Source: Hamadaea tsunoensis DSM 44101 | Lineage (GTDB): Bacteria; Actinomycetota; Actinomycetes; Mycobacteriales; Micromonosporaceae | DNA: 64,000 nt | Assembly: GCF_000428945.1 (NCBI RefSeq) | Contig: NZ_AUAX01000006.1 | Span: 62,001 to 126,000 of the forward strand | Direction of reading: 5' to 3' | Part shown: piece by piece, positions 26,800-37,157 of the stretch | Position numbering within the stretch: the stretch's first letter is position 1 | Layout of the letters: each line of letters opens with the position of its first letter | The notes under the pieces: model-generated | The model's database searches: none | Seen by the model: the letters and a program-made list of their open reading frames with translations, nothing else | Told to the model about the DNA's origin: nothing | Position numbers and translations under genes: made by a program

Positions 26800-28065
26800 T
26801 CAGCAGGTGAGCGTGGCGGTGGCGCCGCCGGTGCTGGACGCGGTGGCCGGGCCGCCGAGGGCGGCGACGGCGTTGCCCGAGATGTCGACGGGCGCCTGGA
26901 CCGGCACGAGAGCCTGGGTGCCGTTCAGTACGCCGAAGTTCGCCCCGCTGTGCAGGTCGCACGAGCTGGTGGTCGGGGCGAAGTGACGGTCGGTGGCAGC
27001 GCTGCCCGTCAGATCGCCGCCGCCCAGCAGGTCGCCGCCGAGGAGGCCGTCGCCGAGCAGGTTGCCGGTGACGCCGCCGAGGTCGGTGAGACCGGCCAGG
27101 CCGCCGACCAGCGGCAGACCCTCGCCCTTCGCGTGGTGCTTCTGCGCGTGGGGCTTGCCGTCGTGGTTCTTCTTGACGTGCTGGTTCTTGTGGGCGTGCT
27201 GGTTCTGGTGGCCGTGCTTCCTGCCGTGCTGGGCGTTCTTGTCGCCATACGGCTGCGGCGTCGGCCACGGCGCCGGGGCGGGCTCGCCGATGGTCGCGTC
27301 CGAGCCGCCCTGGCAGTGCGCCTCGGCCGTACCCAGGATGCCGATGGCGTTGCCGCACACGTTGATCGGGATCTGCAGGATCGGCAGGAGCTGCGTACCG
27401 TTGCCGAGGCCGACGTTCAGGCCGGTCGACGCGGACGGCAGGCCGTCTTCGCCCAGGGTCGCGTGCGCGCCGCCGGTGCAGCTCGCGGTGGCCGAGCCGA
27501 GCAGCCCGATCGCGTTGCCGCACAGGTCGATCGGGATCTGGATCGGGGCGACGGCCTGCGTACCGTTCAGGACGCCGACGTTGTGCGATGTGTCGTACTG
27601 CGCGGCCTCGGTACGCATCTTGTCCGGGTGTACGTCGTACGGCCGGGGCGTCGGGTGGTGTGCCGGCGTGTGGGTCGCCCAGGAGCCGCCCGTGCACCAC
27701 GCCGACGCGGTCCCGAGGATGCCGACGCCGTTGCCGCAGGCGTCGATCGGGGCCTGCAGCAGCGCGCGCAGCTGGGTGCCGTTGAGCAGGCCGAAGTTCT
27801 GGGTGCTGGTCAGGTCGCCGTCGACGCCGTTGTCGGTCGCCCAGGCGCCACCGGTGCATCCCGCGTACGCGGTGCCGAGCAGCGAGACGGCGTTGCCGCA
27901 CACGTCCACCGGCGCCTGGATCTTGGCGTCGACCTGCGTACCGTTGCCGATGCCGGCGTTACCCGAGGTCGTGTCGGCGGCCGCGTGGGCGGCACCGGCG
28001 CCGGCGATCAGGAATCCGGCCGACAGCATGCCGACCTTGAAGGACTTTCGAGCCCACGAGTTCAT
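26800..28065 (-). CDS. Secreted multi-repeat chaplin-like surface protein
   Basis: 421 residues. A signal peptide (SFKVGMLSAGFLIAGAGAAHAA, first ~29 residues) precedes five copies of a ~42-residue module. The module consensus is N(F/V)GxxNGTQ, six to eight residues, P(I/V)D(V/L)CGNAxxxLGxA, then C(T/Q)GGxxAT. Modules lie at about 35-77, 90-131, 162-203, 217-258 and 375-421. The CGN block resembles Streptomyces chaplins, which coat aerial surfaces. Copies 1-4 keep two cysteines each; copy 5 has lost both (DISGN and SSTGG). Between copies 4 and 5 lies a His/Lys/Asn-rich linker (HGRKHGHQNQHAHKNQH). No sortase motif is seen. The ATG at 28065 begins the signal peptide; an open frame upstream is not supported. 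Confidence 0.85.
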   Translation of the reverse strand: MNSWARKSFKVGMLSAGFLIAGAGAAHAAADTTSGNAGIGNGTQVDAKIQAPVDVCGNAVSLLGTAYAGCTGGAWATDNGVDGDLTSTQNFGLLNGTQLRALLQAPIDACGNGVGILGTASAWCTGGSWATHTPAHHPTPRPYDVHPDKMRTEAAQYDTSHNVGVLNGTQAVAPIQIPIDLCGNAIGLLGSATASCTGGAHATLGEDGLPSASTGLNVGLGNGTQLLPILQIPINVCGNAIGILGTAEAHCQGGSDATIGEPAPAPWPTPQPYGDKNAQHGRKHGHQNQHAHKNQHVKKNHDGKPHAQKHHAKGEGLPLVGGLAGLTDLGGVTGNLLGDGLLGGDLLGGGDLTGSAATDRHFAPTTSSCDLHSGANFGVLNGTQALVPVQAPVDISGNAVAALGGPATASSTGGATATLTC

Positions 28066-28231
28066 GGTGGAGATTGCCTTTCGGAGATTCAGACCGGGGG
28101 GTCTGAGGTGCAGTGATGTGCCGTGCAGTGCCCAGGAGCGAAAGTGCTGGGCGGCCACGGGCGCACGCCGGCGTCCCGGCGCGGCTCGCGGGAACGAGAC
28201 CGCAACAGGTGCGGAGATGTGCAGAGATCGC

Positions 28232-30171: not shown

Positions 30172-31521
<1,350 letters not shown>

Positions 31522-31567
31522 CTTTCGCACGTTATCGGGTCGGCCGGACGCGCGCGACGGCGGGCCT

Positions 31568-31579
31568 GAACGATCGCTC
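31568..31579. promoter_or_regulatory. Operator-like palindrome before the biotin carboxylase gene
   Basis: GAACGATCGCTC (core AACGATCGCT, one mismatch to AACGnnCGTT) lies within a longer imperfect palindrome CCTGAACGATCGCTCAGG, in the 142-bp gap between tetR and the biotin carboxylase start. Confidence 0.55.
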
Positions 31580-31663
31580 AGGAAATCGGCCTCCCCCCGT
31601 GCTGAGGTGCGATTTCCTTCAGGTTCGATCAGGGCTTCGGTGAGGGCTTCGATCAGGCTTCGG

Positions 31664-32290
31664 TCAGGCAAGGAGCGCGCTGAGGGTCGCCTCACGCAGG
31701 AGGGCCGCCCTGCGCTGCCGGTCCACCTCGCCGCCGAGGAACGGCGTCGAGTTCATCAGGCCGAACACGGCGTGCGCCAGAACACGGGCCTCCCCGTCGC
31801 TCAGTCCGGACCGCAGAGCGGTGAGTACGCCGACCCACTCCTCCACGTAGCGTCGCTGCAGCCGGCGGATCTCCCGGCGGGGCTCCTCGGGCAGCCGGTC
31901 GAGTTCGTGCAAGTGCAGGGCGATCACCGCCGGGTTGGCCAGCGCGAATTCGACGTGGAAGTCGACCAGCGCCTCCAGCGCGGCCCGCGGATCGTCCTTG
32001 TGCGCCTCGGCCCGCTCCCGTCCGCCCGAGAGCAGGCCCTCGCTGACGGGATTGAGCGCGGCCACGAGCATGGCGTCCTTGCCCGCGAAGTGGTGGTACA
32101 GAGCGGGCCCTGTGACGCCGGCTTCCTTGCCGATGTCATCCATGGACACGCCGTGGTAGCCGCGCGTCGCGAACAGTCCGACCGCGATCTCGAGGATCTC
32201 GTCGCGCCGGCTGCGCTTGCGAGGCTTGCCCGAGGCTTCGGAAGTCCGGTCAGCTCGCACGCGGGGGGTGCCTACCTGCTCGATTGTCAC
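31664..32290 (-). CDS. TetR-family repressor of the acyl-CoA cluster
   Basis: 208 residues. The N-terminal helix-turn-helix (RRDEILEIAVGLFATRGYHG, then VSMDDIGKEAGVTGPALYHH) is classic TetR. The C-terminal helical domain (ALEALVDFHVEFALANPAVI) should bind an acyl-CoA or CoA intermediate (family knowledge from LiuR/BkaR-type regulators). It is co-directional with and upstream of the biotin carboxylase gene. A palindrome of the regulon type overlaps its own promoter region, suggesting autoregulation. The start is a GTG at 32290. Confidence 0.93.
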   Translation of the reverse strand: MTIEQVGTPRVRADRTSEASGKPRKRSRRDEILEIAVGLFATRGYHGVSMDDIGKEAGVTGPALYHHFAGKDAMLVAALNPVSEGLLSGGRERAEAHKDDPRAALEALVDFHVEFALANPAVIALHLHELDRLPEEPRREIRRLQRRYVEEWVGVLTALRSGLSDGEARVLAHAVFGLMNSTPFLGGEVDRQRRAALLREATLSALLA

Positions 32291-32324: not shown

Positions 32325-32336
32325 TAACGCCCGTTT
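32325..32336. promoter_or_regulatory. TetR-type operator before tetR
   Basis: TAACGCCCGTTT lies 35 bp upstream of the tetR start and overlaps the stop codon region of the upstream TPR-like gene, so the tetR promoter is embedded in that gene's end. Confidence 0.7.
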
Positions 32337-35202
32337 AGTTACTTTCGGGTAGATCGTACGTTTTGCGCACGTCGGCGGCTTTCTGATGTTCGCCCTGCGC
32401 ATCGAAGGCGCGGGCGAGCCACCACGCCGCTTCCTGCCGGGCCCGATGATCCCGGGGCAGGCCTTCGAGCACGTGCACGAGAACCCGCTCGCCGCGCTCG
32501 GGATCACCCGAGGCCACCAGCACCTCGCCGTACCGCAGCTCGGCCAGGGCCGCCTCCTCGTACGCCGAGATCGAACGGAACAGGTCCGGGGCACGTTCGC
32601 TGCGCAGCAGGGCACCGGCGTAGTCCCCGTGGTCCGACAGCACGTACGCCGCGTCGTAGCAAGCCATCGCGTGTTCCCAGACGACGCCCGGTTCCTTGTC
32701 CGGGTCGGCCCCGGTGACGAGCGCCTCGACCTCCCGGATCGCCTGCGCCGACCCCTCGGCGTCCCGGGCGTAGTGCAGGGCGAGGATGCGCCGGCGCAGT
32801 GCCCTGGCCGTCGCCGGGAGATCGTCGGCTGCTCCGTAACCGGCGGCGGCCTCGGCGTACTTGCCGGCGGCCTCCCGGTCACGGTCCATCCGGTAGAGCA
32901 CCTCCGCCATCCGCTCGGTCAGGTCGGCCCGGCGGCGGGAGTCGTCATAACCGTTGCGGCTGCCAGTCAGTGCTTCGAGCTGGGCCAGCGCCGCACCGGG
33001 CTCCCCCATCTCGTCGTAGACGCGGGCCAGCAGGTCGCGGCACTCGTCGGCCATGAACAGCTCGTCGGTGCCCTCGCGGGCGTCGGCCATGCGGCTGAAC
33101 CAGGCCAGCGCCTCCTCCGCGACCTCGGCGGCCTCCCGGATACGGCCCGTGGTCGCGAGCGCCACCGCCAGCCGATGCCGGGTGTACGCGGCCGCACGGT
33201 CCTCGCCCTCGGCGGCCATGATGCAGACGTGCTCGACGATGTCGTCGATCACCTCGCCGGCCCGGTCGGTGTTCACCAGCATGAACGCCGCGTTCGCCCG
33301 GGAGTTGCGGCGCAGTTCGGGGTCGACCGAGCTCGCGGCGGCCTCCTCGAACGAGGCCAGCGCCGCCTTGTGGTCGCCGGCGCCGGCGATGAGGTTGGCG
33401 TACATGACCAGGGCGGAGCCCAGCTGGTCGTTCGGGCTGTACGGCCGGAGCAGCTCGATCGCGGCCCGGACCGCCTCGACGGTCTCCGGGATCCGGTCGA
33501 GCCGGTGCAGCAGGCCCGCCCGCAGCATCAGCGCCTGGGCCCGGCGGCGGGGCGGCGCCTCCCCCGGCTCCGCGTCGGCCCGTTCGAGGGCTTCGAGCGC
33601 GCTGCTCTCGTCCCCGGTCATCGCCCGCAGGTACGCGACGCGCAGCATCGTCGTGCGCCGCTGGTTCGGATCGGTGGACTCGGTCATCAGCGCCTCGGCC
33701 GCCGCGAGCCCCTCGTCGAGGTCGGCGGGGTCGGACCGGAGCTCCAGCCGGGCCATCGCGAGCTGGATCCGGGCCGCGAGGGCGAGTTCGAGCGCGCCGG
33801 CCTCCACGAAGGCGTCGACGGCCGCCGCGAACTCGCGCTCCGCGGTCGCGGTGTCCTGCCGGTCGGCCTGGTACGCGCGCAGCCGGGCCAGCCGGCCGCG
33901 GTGGACCGGAGTGTCACCGCCGTCCGGGAACCCGGCGATGATCCGGGCGCCGAGGGCCTTGGCCCGCTCCTCCTCGTCGGCCTGGTACCACGCCTCGGCC
34001 AGATCGAGCTGCTGATCGAGGCTGAAGGTGACCGGCACGGCCGACAGATCGGGTTCTTCGGCGGCCGGGGCGACGGAGGGCGGTGCGACCCGCTGCCGGT
34101 AGGCGGCCGTGATCGACAACGGCAGGTACCCGACCAGCGGCTCGGCCGTCAGCTTGGCGGCGATCCGCTCGCTCTGGTACGCGTTGCCGTTGCGCTCGTC
34201 GAAGCGCGCCGCGATGGCGGTCGCCCGCGCGGCCAGCCGGTCGGCGAGTTCCCCCACGGTGGCCGGGCCCTGCCGGGTGCGTACCGCGAGGTCGGCCCGG
34301 CCCGCGGCGACGAGGCGGCGCAGCACGAGGGCGGCCGCCGAGGCGAACTCCATCTCGGACTTGGGTGTCGGCGGCCGGTCGAGCCAGGCGAGGTGGCGCT
34401 CGATCAGTTCGAGCCCGCGCATCTCGTTGCCGGACAGCCCGCAGAACTCGACGTGCTCGGCGACCGAGCCGAGGTCGGCGGGGTTGTTCTGGAACGCCCG
34501 GTACGCCCGCCGGTGCGCGTCCCGGGCCTGGTCGAGCCGGCCGGATCGCAGGTACGGGATCATCAGCGCGGTCAGGATCGAGTGCGGCTGCTCGGCGCAG
34601 CTCAGCCGGCCGGCCAGCGCGGGTTCGGCCAGCGCGATCGCATCCTCGTAACGTTCCCGCCACACCAGGTGGTACGCCTTCGACGTCGGGTCGCAGCCGG
34701 CGCAGTCGGAGTTCTCGTCGCGCGGGGCGCTGTCCCATTGCCGGTACCAGTGGTCGGCCAGCTCGACGTCGCCCACGTGCGACGCGATCGTGTGCCGGTA
34801 CGCGTACACGGCGTGCAGGCTGTGCCCGCCGGACCGGTAGCGCCGTTCCATGTCGTCGAGGACGGCGTGCGTACGCTCCAACGGCACTTCGGGGAACCGG
34901 GCCATCGACGAGATGACGTACTTGAAGTACCAGAGCAGCAGGCGTTCGTCCTCGGCGGTACGCCCGGACGGGTCGGCGTCGTAGTCGGCCAGGCACCGGG
35001 CGAACGTCACGAACGCCTTGGCCGGCTCGCCGCCCCGGTGGAACGCGTTGGTCGCGGCCATCCGCGCGGCGAAGGCGACGTCCGGATCACCGAGCGCCTC
35101 GGCCTGCCGCAGCGCACCCTCCGCGAGTGCGATCTGGGCCGGCCCGTCCGGCGCCTCCCAGACCTGGTGCAGGAGTTCCCGCACCTCCTTGGCCGTCGTC
35201 AT
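32335..35202 (-). CDS. Large TPR-like repeat protein coupled to an HSP90-family gene
   Basis: 955 residues, almost entirely helical, built of TPR-like ~34-residue helix pairs (for example PAQIALAEGALRQAEALGDP, DHKAALASFEEAAASS and ALAELRYGEVLVASGDPERG). No signal peptide, TM segment or catalytic motif is visible. A Cys pair (SDCAGCDP) lies near residue 168. The ATG overlaps the stop of the HSP90-like gene (ATGA), so the two are translated together. TPR domains are known co-chaperone modules for eukaryotic HSP90, so this may be a dedicated partner (inference). The family is uncharacterised as far as I know. Confidence 0.85.
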   Translation of the reverse strand: MTTAKEVRELLHQVWEAPDGPAQIALAEGALRQAEALGDPDVAFAARMAATNAFHRGGEPAKAFVTFARCLADYDADPSGRTAEDERLLLWYFKYVISSMARFPEVPLERTHAVLDDMERRYRSGGHSLHAVYAYRHTIASHVGDVELADHWYRQWDSAPRDENSDCAGCDPTSKAYHLVWRERYEDAIALAEPALAGRLSCAEQPHSILTALMIPYLRSGRLDQARDAHRRAYRAFQNNPADLGSVAEHVEFCGLSGNEMRGLELIERHLAWLDRPPTPKSEMEFASAAALVLRRLVAAGRADLAVRTRQGPATVGELADRLAARATAIAARFDERNGNAYQSERIAAKLTAEPLVGYLPLSITAAYRQRVAPPSVAPAAEEPDLSAVPVTFSLDQQLDLAEAWYQADEEERAKALGARIIAGFPDGGDTPVHRGRLARLRAYQADRQDTATAEREFAAAVDAFVEAGALELALAARIQLAMARLELRSDPADLDEGLAAAEALMTESTDPNQRRTTMLRVAYLRAMTGDESSALEALERADAEPGEAPPRRRAQALMLRAGLLHRLDRIPETVEAVRAAIELLRPYSPNDQLGSALVMYANLIAGAGDHKAALASFEEAAASSVDPELRRNSRANAAFMLVNTDRAGEVIDDIVEHVCIMAAEGEDRAAAYTRHRLAVALATTGRIREAAEVAEEALAWFSRMADAREGTDELFMADECRDLLARVYDEMGEPGAALAQLEALTGSRNGYDDSRRRADLTERMAEVLYRMDRDREAAGKYAEAAAGYGAADDLPATARALRRRILALHYARDAEGSAQAIREVEALVTGADPDKEPGVVWEHAMACYDAAYVLSDHGDYAGALLRSERAPDLFRSISAYEEAALAELRYGEVLVASGDPERGERVLVHVLEGLPRDHRARQEAAWWLARAFDAQGEHQKAADVRKTYDLPESN

Positions 35203-37043
35203 CGGTCCTCCCCAGGATCTTCCCGCACCGTACCCTCATCCGCCGGGTCCGGCGCCGCGGCCTCCGCCGGTCCGGTCTCCGGCTCGGTGAAGCCCGGGAC
35301 CGCCTGCTGCAGCAGCCCGAAGAAGGAGCGGTTGAGCAGGGCCGAGTCCGCCGGCCGCAGAGGATGGTGGCCGAGCAGCAGCGCCTGGCCGTACAGCGCC
35401 TCGACCGCCAGGCGCATCAGCTCGTCGCTGCCGAGCGCGGCGATCCGGCGTACCAGCGGATTGCGGTGATTGAGGACGAGCTGGGGGCGCGTCGCCGCCT
35501 CGGCCCGCTCGAAGGCCGCGAGGACCCCGGCCCACACGTCGTCGACCACTTGCTGCGTCTCGCGCAGCCGGCGCTGGAACGAGGCTTCGCGGTCGACCAG
35601 GTAGAGGGCCGCGAGGCCCGGCGGGTCGTACGCGCGCACGACGACCTCGCAGCCGAGGGCGTCGAGACCGCGCTGGGCGACCGACACGAAATGCCGCAGG
35701 GCGAGCTCGGTGGCCGGGTCGAGGGTGTCGAAACGGGTGGACAGGTCGCTCGGGTCGAGCCGGTCGACCAGGATCTCGGGGTGCAGCAGCGGCAACCGCT
35801 CGATGATCTCGGCGTCGTAGGTGTAGCCCGCGTTGACGATGGCCAGGTCCTGGGCCGCCGCCACCGCGGCGAGCTGCCGGAACTCGTCGATCGAGGCGCA
35901 GTAGCGCACGGTCCCGAAGCGCTCGCGGAACTCGGCGAGCGGCATCTGCCCCATGTTCGTCTCCATCGGCCACCACTCGTCGACCAGGCGCAGCATCTCC
36001 TCGTCGTGCAGGGCCAGCGTCTTCACGCCCAGGTGGTGGATGCTCAGGAACTGCTGCAGCCGGTAGGGCTCGCGCCGCGCGAGGTTCACCAGCCACCCCC
36101 GCAGCTGATCGCCCAGCTCCTCGCGGACCGATTCGAGCAGGCCGTCCTCGTAGAGCGCCTCACGCCCGGCGGTCGGCCGCAGCTCGGAGGTGTCGATCAG
36201 ACACCGCGCGAAGAACGCCCACTCGGGCAGCAGCCCTTCCGCACCCTCGGCGAGCAGCATGCGCTTGAGGTAGACCCGGTGGCCGGCGCGCGCCGCCGGG
36301 TTCGCCGCCCGCGGCATCACGAAAGCCACGCCGGTCAGGCCCGCCTGCGGAACCTTCAGCTCGATCACGTCGAAAGGCGTGAACCCGAAGGTCTTCTCCG
36401 CGTACGCGATGAGCGCTCCGCGCCCGGCGATCCACGGCGGTGTGTCGACGGTCACCGGTTCGCCGTCGACCCGGATCGGGAACGGGAGCATCTCGCCGAA
36501 GATCCGGGCGAGGTCGGTGACGCGCTCCCCGTCCAGCCAGTCGTACGCGTCCGGTCGCGGGGTCAGCGTGACGGTGGTGCCGGTCTCCGACCGGGCCGGC
36601 CCGGGCTCGACGGTGTAACGGCCGTCGGAGTAGCCGGTCCAGTAGACGGTCGGCGCGTCGCCGCTGCGGGTCTGCACGCGGATCTCGTCGGCGACCAGGA
36701 AGCACGACAGCAGGCCGATGCCGAACTGCCCGAGGAATTCCTGCCGGGAGAAGCCGAGCTCGTCGCGCTTGCCGCTGCGCCCGATGGTGGCGAGCAGCTC
36801 GTGCACCTGCGCCTCGGTCAGCCCGATCCCCGTGTCGTGTACACGCAGCGTCCCGTCCGCGGTCTGCTTCGGCGTCTCGATCCAGATCGACGCGGGCGCG
36901 TGAGGTTGCCCCTCGCGACGTGCGGTGATCGCGTCCACCGAGTTCTGCAGCAGCTCGCGGATGTAGACGCGCGGGCTCGCGTACAGGTGGTGGCTGAGCA
37001 GATCCACGATGCCGCGCAGGTCGACCTGGAAGGAATGGCTCAC
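35199..37043 (-). CDS. HSP90-family protein (HtpG-like)
   Basis: About 614 residues. The GHKL ATPase domain is intact: helix with ELLQNSVDAI (catalytic Glu and Mg-binding Asn), DTGIGLT, GQFGIGLLSCF and TTVTLTP. A middle domain (YLKRMLLAEGAEGLLPEWAF with the LIDTSELRPTAGREAL segment) and a C-terminal domain follow, ending in an acidic tail. It is close to HtpG but divergent, a branch annotated in actinobacteria as HSP90 family protein. The GTG at 37043 (VSHSFQVDLRG) is chosen by homology of the N-terminus. It is coupled by ATGA to the TPR-like gene downstream. Confidence 0.92.
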   Translation of the reverse strand: MSHSFQVDLRGIVDLLSHHLYASPRVYIRELLQNSVDAITARREGQPHAPASIWIETPKQTADGTLRVHDTGIGLTEAQVHELLATIGRSGKRDELGFSRQEFLGQFGIGLLSCFLVADEIRVQTRSGDAPTVYWTGYSDGRYTVEPGPARSETGTTVTLTPRPDAYDWLDGERVTDLARIFGEMLPFPIRVDGEPVTVDTPPWIAGRGALIAYAEKTFGFTPFDVIELKVPQAGLTGVAFVMPRAANPAARAGHRVYLKRMLLAEGAEGLLPEWAFFARCLIDTSELRPTAGREALYEDGLLESVREELGDQLRGWLVNLARREPYRLQQFLSIHHLGVKTLALHDEEMLRLVDEWWPMETNMGQMPLAEFRERFGTVRYCASIDEFRQLAAVAAAQDLAIVNAGYTYDAEIIERLPLLHPEILVDRLDPSDLSTRFDTLDPATELALRHFVSVAQRGLDALGCEVVVRAYDPPGLAALYLVDREASFQRRLRETQQVVDDVWAGVLAAFERAEAATRPQLVLNHRNPLVRRIAALGSDELMRLAVEALYGQALLLGHHPLRPADSALLNRSFFGLLQQAVPGFTEPETGPAEAAAPDPADEGTVREDPGEDR

Positions 37044-37157
37044 GCTCGGAGGGTACCGACGAGCAAGGACATTCGCGCACCCGCGTAATGCGGTTGTGGA
37101 TGGCGCATTCCCGTCAGTCACGGCCCGCTTACAGGGCAGCACCGAGAGGAGTTGCCG

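Follow-up and report, generated by a model that had tools for sequence, protein, structure and literature searches.

An HSP90-family ATPase and a TPR-type solenoid protein encoded as a conserved bacterial gene pair: a candidate dedicated chaperone unit

A gene for an HSP90-family ATPase and a gene for a 955-residue TPR-type solenoid protein form a translationally coupled pair that has been kept together across two bacterial phyla. The pair was analyzed in Hamadaea tsunoensis DSM 44101, in a 64,000-nucleotide stretch of DNA (hereafter the window), and a homologue of the conserved N-terminal part of the solenoid protein (the N-domain) was found to be encoded directly downstream of 131 of the 133 distinct HSP90s retrieved from the NF010683-type family. 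The pair is a strong candidate for a type of HSP90 partner, dedicated to its chaperone, that has been considered absent from bacteria. We favor, with moderate confidence, the reading that the two genes constitute a dedicated and self-contained chaperone unit, in which the TPR protein serves as an obligate co-chaperone or client adaptor of the HSP90.

Organization of the gene pair

The following features were identified, with positions counted from the first nucleotide of the window.

35199-37043, minus strand: HSP90-family ATPase/chaperone gene (NCBIfam NF010683 / PRK14083), 614 aa, GTG start, open frame, 806 bits
36459-37043, minus strand: GHKL-type ATPase domain at the N terminus, spanning about residues 1-195, with E30, N34, D70, G72, G74, GQFGIG at 105-110, and T156
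36162-36164, minus strand: R294, which corresponds to the catalytic arginine of the middle domain, alignment column invariant in 25 of 25 sequences
37050-37055, minus strand: putative -10 element TACCCT (TANNNT), 6 nt before the HSP90 GTG, with a presumed promoter role
35207-35213, minus strand: GGGGAGG ribosome-binding sequence of the TPR gene, within the HSP90 coding sequence, 4 nt before the ATG
35199-35202, minus strand: ATGA stop/start overlap of the HSP90 and TPR genes, four shared bases
32335-35202, minus strand: gene of the TPR-type solenoid partner, 955 aa, ATG start, open frame, predicted fold
34153-35202, minus strand: well-conserved N-domain (residues 1-350 of the partner), common to Bacillota partners and YbjN-associated proteins
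34687-34710, minus strand: SDCAGCDP motif at residues 165-172, within the N-domain (consensus SDCxGCDP)
34186-34203, minus strand: FDERNG motif, residues 334-339 of the N-domain (consensus FDxRNG, invariant in the alignment; FDARNEN in Listeria)
34021-34092, minus strand: variable linker joining the two solenoids in the model, about residues 371-394, with pLDDT below 50 at 371-382
32353-34020, minus strand: C-terminal superhelix of TPRs, variable, roughly residues 395-950, lacking in Bacillota partners

An HSP90 gene overlapping by ATGA with a 955-residue gene had been predicted from the sequence of the window, and both frames proved to be open on the minus strand, at the coordinates given with the prediction. 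The chosen start codons are supported, since relatives start at the same residues. The 4-base overlap was also the most common junction between HSP90 and partner among the homologous loci, and in most cases the two genes overlapped or lay a few bases apart.

The TANNNT element 6 nt 5' of the HSP90 start was recurrent across Micromonosporaceae, which suggests, at the level of sequence, a promoter of its own and a leaderless transcript for the HSP90 gene. Additionally, the sequence CGGTACC occurred upstream of 29 of 80 related HSP90s, compared with 1.2 in shuffled sequences, a recurrence that is only suggestive because the sequences compared are related. The idea of a heat-shock operator was rejected: even when three mismatches were tolerated, the window contained neither a HAIR (HspR) nor a CIRCE (HrcA) match.

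The HSP90 belongs to a lineage separate from HtpG

The window HSP90 matched the NF010683 model with 806.2 bits over residues 1-584 (cut-off 455) and is a member of that family, whereas it scored 165.8 bits against the canonical HtpG model NF003555, below the cut-off of 371. Pfam identified HATPase domains only. The three-domain fold of HSP90 was recovered from a predicted structure (pLDDT 73.6, with low confidence in the lid region), for which Foldseek returned full-length matches of the N, M, and C domains to TRAP1 and HtpG (E ~1e-28). The alignment showed conservation of the ATP-binding and catalytic residues E30, N34, D70, G72, G74, G105, G108, G110, T156, and R294, which we take to be equivalent to E33, N37, D79, the glycine-rich lid, T171, and R380 of the yeast protein. 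Judged by these residues, the protein is an intact HSP90-type ATPase, as originally predicted, and its fold family suggests that it is dimeric.

A canonical HtpG is also encoded in the same genome (L196, 632 aa, 769 bits). The two proteins share the three-domain architecture and the catalytic residues, but HtpG belongs to a separate clade. The HTPG2 protein of Streptomyces coelicolor (NP_625688.1) is probably another NF010683 member, given its length of 615 aa and its taxon. The HSP90 itself is already known, because S. coelicolor was recorded as having two htpG genes in 2006 (PMC1525184) and an NCBIfam entry exists. However, NF010683/PRK14083 is a family without a described function, and its NCBIfam description omits the near-constant TPR partner.

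The partner is predicted to be a two-solenoid TPR protein

By sequence, the partner gave only a weak match to Pfam TPR_12, and a PDB sequence search with it yielded nothing convincing. An AlphaFold2 model built from 26 sequences had a mean pLDDT of 90.6 and consisted of two all-helical solenoids (residues 1-350 and 395-950), with the TPR scaffolds Ski3, Ctr9, Pins, and OGT as the best Foldseek matches. The helical, TPR-like nature proposed for this protein is thus upheld by the model, which predicts two TPR-type solenoids with high confidence. A clamp-type domain of three TPRs did not stand out in the fold search.

Among relatives, residues 1-350 were much better conserved than the remainder. 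Most members kept a set of three cysteines, made up of the two in the CxxC of the SDCAGCDP motif and C202. A zinc site formed by C167, C170, C202, and C254 was considered and is unproven: the cysteines are absent in the Murinocardiopsis and Nocardia partners, and C254 is not kept in Listeria.

The two genes are inherited together

The HSP90s counted above were those with more than 300 bits to the HSP90 profile, and they were retrieved by HSP90 similarity alone or from genome samples. Scanning the contigs of GTDB for the HSP90 only provided 80 loci from about 20 genera, the genome samples added more, and homologues were identified by protein alignments. One of the two exceptions is an HSP90 at the end of a contig (L200). 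The other is the HSP90 of genome G007 (36% identity), where a 360-aa homologue of the N-domain is encoded some 4 kb downstream, with another gene in between. Adjacency across the actinobacteria had been set beforehand as a check on the prediction, and it was found to be strictly conserved, even in Bacillota; the prediction thereby passed the test named for refuting it, the lack of a conserved neighborhood.

A similar picture was obtained from two samples of genomes drawn regardless of the pair. Every HSP90 hit had the partner beside it, both in the class sample of 148 genomes (16 of 16) and in the phylum sample of 296 genomes (12 of 12). Conversely, an HSP90 was found beside 16 of the 18 N-domains in the class sample, the remaining two being those of genomes G006 and G210. 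The distribution of the pair was patchy, with 14 of the 148 class genomes containing it.

The pairing is far from chance, as the same partner lies directly downstream of nearly all HSP90s retrieved from the family; the loci are not independent samples, however, since a few families contributed most of them. Stronger evidence of linkage than the counts of loci is provided by paralogues that co-segregate. Genome G063 holds two divergent paralogous pairs, each of which segregates as a unit: copy a is separated from its counterpart in genome G200 by distances of 0.07 for the HSP90 and 0.19 for the N-domain, compared with 0.55 and 1.02, respectively, between copies a and b of the same genome. Over 111 pairs, the distances of the two proteins were correlated in a mirror-tree comparison (r = 0.92).

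Partners consisting of the N-domain were found in Bacillota, where the evidence comprises a handful of records. Paenibacillus (L190) encodes an HSP90 and a 353-aa partner with the same 4-base overlap, while in Listeria (L188) two N-domain proteins, 324 and 320 aa long, are encoded after the HSP90. From the neighboring fri gene and the label lmo0937, we infer that the Listeria genes are lmo0942-lmo0940; in 2019, lmo0941 was still described as having an unknown function (PMC6901971). As the Bacillota partners contain the N-domain only, this domain appears to be the core of the partner and the C-terminal solenoid an actinobacterial addition.

Distant HSP90 branches with TPR neighbors

A distant HSP90 branch with a TPR neighbor of its own (764-783 aa) was found in Pseudomonas, Xanthomonas, and one member of the Micromonosporaceae (G010), at L192 4881-9122, L195 6001-10224, and L147 3808-8254. 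Between Pseudomonas and G010, the HSP90s were 53% identical and the TPR partners 34% identical. The Pseudomonas and Xanthomonas loci resemble the window pair in gene order, an 'ATP-binding protein' being followed by a TPR protein of 764-774 aa with cysteine pairs, but their HSP90 is only about 31% identical and scores 293 bits, under the NF010683 cut-off. The Pseudomonas genes are presumably PA1068-PA1069 on the PAO1 map. A homology of the N-domain with this type of TPR partner was unsupported (hhalign probability 0.1%), although both have a CxxC before a helical pair, and a relative of the partner in Nonomuraea has no HSP90 upstream.

Another locus was observed on the Pseudanabaena plasmid ABRG53a (L189 4213-9795), which encodes an 877-aa HSP90-like protein whose C-terminal part weakly matches the TIR domain of CAP12/Pycsar. 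A 232-aa protein resembling this C-terminus and a TPR gene are encoded downstream, and a ThsB-type TIR gene lies upstream. It is possible that this locus represents a signaling or defense branch of HSP90.

Proposed mechanism and alternative explanations

A working partnership of the HSP90 and the solenoid protein is suggested because the genes are obligate, coupled, and co-inherited. In the proposed mechanism, the HSP90, as a second lineage apart from HtpG, would act as a dimeric, ATP-driven clamp. The N-domain of the partner, which is predicted as a TPR-like solenoid and carries both the CxxC and the FDxRNG motif, would most likely dock on it and is the natural docking element, as it is both conserved and sufficient in Bacillota. 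The C-terminal TPR superhelix may select or hold client proteins, an adaptor role to which its variability points. Translational coupling and the strong internal ribosome-binding site would favor balanced production of the two proteins. Physical binding, the binding domain, and the adaptor role are all what we infer rather than observe. The distant HSP90 branch with a TPR neighbor of its own, and the lack of any other neighbor common to several families, are in keeping with this mechanism. Four points weigh against it: the coupling of the genes fits a client relation as well, the N-domain can exist without an HSP90, the two genes are some 4 kb apart in G007, and the pair is patchy.

The main rival explanation, which we consider rather unlikely, reverses the roles: the TPR protein would be an obligate client and the HSP90 its private foldase or stabilizer, leaving the solenoid as the true effector, for example a scaffold or a signaling adaptor. 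The same coupling and co-inheritance would be expected. Occurrences of the N-domain outside the pair also bear on this explanation. In G006 (L145 7532-9609), the N-domain is fused to YbjN (PF10722), with a second YbjN gene just upstream and no HSP90, and on an Actinomyces oris plasmid (L193 4319-9036) it likewise occurs with YbjN (PF10722) and no HSP90. These N-domains are homologous to that of the window and contain the CxxC and FDxRNG motifs, but YbjN is fused or adjoining in place of the HSP90. Since the YbjN family has a secretion-chaperone fold (PMC5398634), the N-domain may seem to need some chaperone, as a client would; nevertheless, YbjN as an alternative partner fits the co-chaperone and client readings alike. 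In G210 (L175 5802-10441), an IS110-family transposase takes the place of the HSP90 beside an orphan N-domain/TPR gene. The persistence of this gene speaks against an obligate client, although it is probably a relic of the pair. Two further observations argue against a client: the conserved motifs cluster in the N-domain while the rest drifts, as expected for a docking surface, and the N-domain-only partner of Bacillota is a small protein that should not need an HSP90 of its own.

A defense module had also been suggested originally. As a conflict or phage-defense system, it would have the HSP90 ATPase for its switch and the TPR protein for its sensor, and the results made it improbable. The patchy distribution would suit such a module, as would the TIR-like C-terminus and the ThsB-type TIR and TPR neighbors of the distant HSP90 on the cyanobacterial plasmid, and conflict systems are known to include YbjN-type chaperones (PMC9503650). 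However, the only PADLOC match was a weak one of 20 bits between the ATPase region of the HSP90 and TmtA, the TPR protein matched no PADLOC family, and no effector gene accompanies the pair. In two streptomycete-type genomes, the pair sits between recG-like and fakA-like genes; the flanks examined there were mostly housekeeping genes, and PADLOC gave only generic helicase and HTH matches for 10 flanking genes. Across Micromonosporaceae, the position of the pair is constant, next to metabolic genes, as in the window. No mobile or defense signature of the pair and no location in a defense island were found in the loci examined.

At one of the loci, the flank of the pair includes a gene for an RNA 2'-phosphotransferase (Tpt1/KptA; L179 10844-11482). 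Elsewhere in the window, a secreted-looking 452-aa protein (26800-28158, minus strand) contains about five chaplin-like repeats by eye (GNGTQ...CGNA...G.A...C.GG).

The constant position in Micromonosporaceae raises the question of a chaperone for one local pathway, in which the pair would mature the biotin carboxylase and acyl-CoA catabolic enzymes encoded downstream. In this family, a TetR gene comes after the pair in eight genera and a biotin carboxylase gene in nine. The TetR gene of the window lies 44 bp downstream of the TPR gene on the same strand (SACE_7040-like, 222.6 bits, under the cut-off of 250), and the biotin carboxylase gene comes next; the two genes together occupy 30172-32290. 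This synteny was confined to Micromonosporaceae; outside the family, the pair is kept in unrelated neighborhoods, which renders such a function still less probable than defense. The earlier statement that the pair stands alone consequently applies outside Micromonosporaceae but not within, and besides the pair itself no neighbor was common across families.

Lastly, a coincidental or selfish linkage, by chance or joint transfer and with no functional contact, would agree with the occurrence of the pair on large plasmids as well, but it is very improbable in view of the near-absolute coupling in two phyla, the overlaps kept despite great divergence, and the co-segregating paralogues.

Comparison with known HSP90 systems

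The absence of an identified obligate co-chaperone for HtpG in bacteria was stated in 2013 (PMC3708813), and bacteria were noted in 2021 to be without orthologues of Hop, Aha1, and p23 (PMC8082187). A search of open-licence full texts found no paper on the HSP90-TPR pairing described here. The pairing supplies a partner and a name for a family whose sole annotation is 'HSP90 family protein', and likewise for hypothetical proteins like lmo0941. A near-inseparable gene pair in two phyla makes the question of a bacterial co-chaperone experimentally simple.

The pair had been likened to the eukaryotic TPR co-chaperones of HSP90. These, among them Hop, FKBP51/52, PP5, and XAP2, are TPR solenoid partners too, by analogy only. 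Eukaryotic systems use a C-terminal MEEVD, whereas the C-terminal tails of about 100 homologues of the window HSP90 were variable (e.g., DPGEDR, PEGED, and RAVPG) and never ended in MEEVD. Docking of a TPR clamp on MEEVD was therefore rejected as a conserved mechanism, and the likeness does not extend to this feature. The partners differ as well: that of the window is a long two-solenoid protein whose fold matches scaffold TPR proteins and not the clamp domains of the eukaryotic co-chaperones. Any docking of the partner on the HSP90, as far as the sequences indicate, would have evolved apart from the eukaryotic system.

We tentatively propose, with somewhat less than even confidence, that bacteria have obligate TPR-type HSP90 co-chaperones that are independent of the eukaryotic MEEVD/TPR system and have arisen at least twice, once as the NF010683 and N-domain pair of Actinomycetota and Bacillota and once as the pair of the Pseudomonas/Xanthomonas type. 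The gene pair would reveal whether the cooperation of TPR proteins with HSP90 arose more than once.
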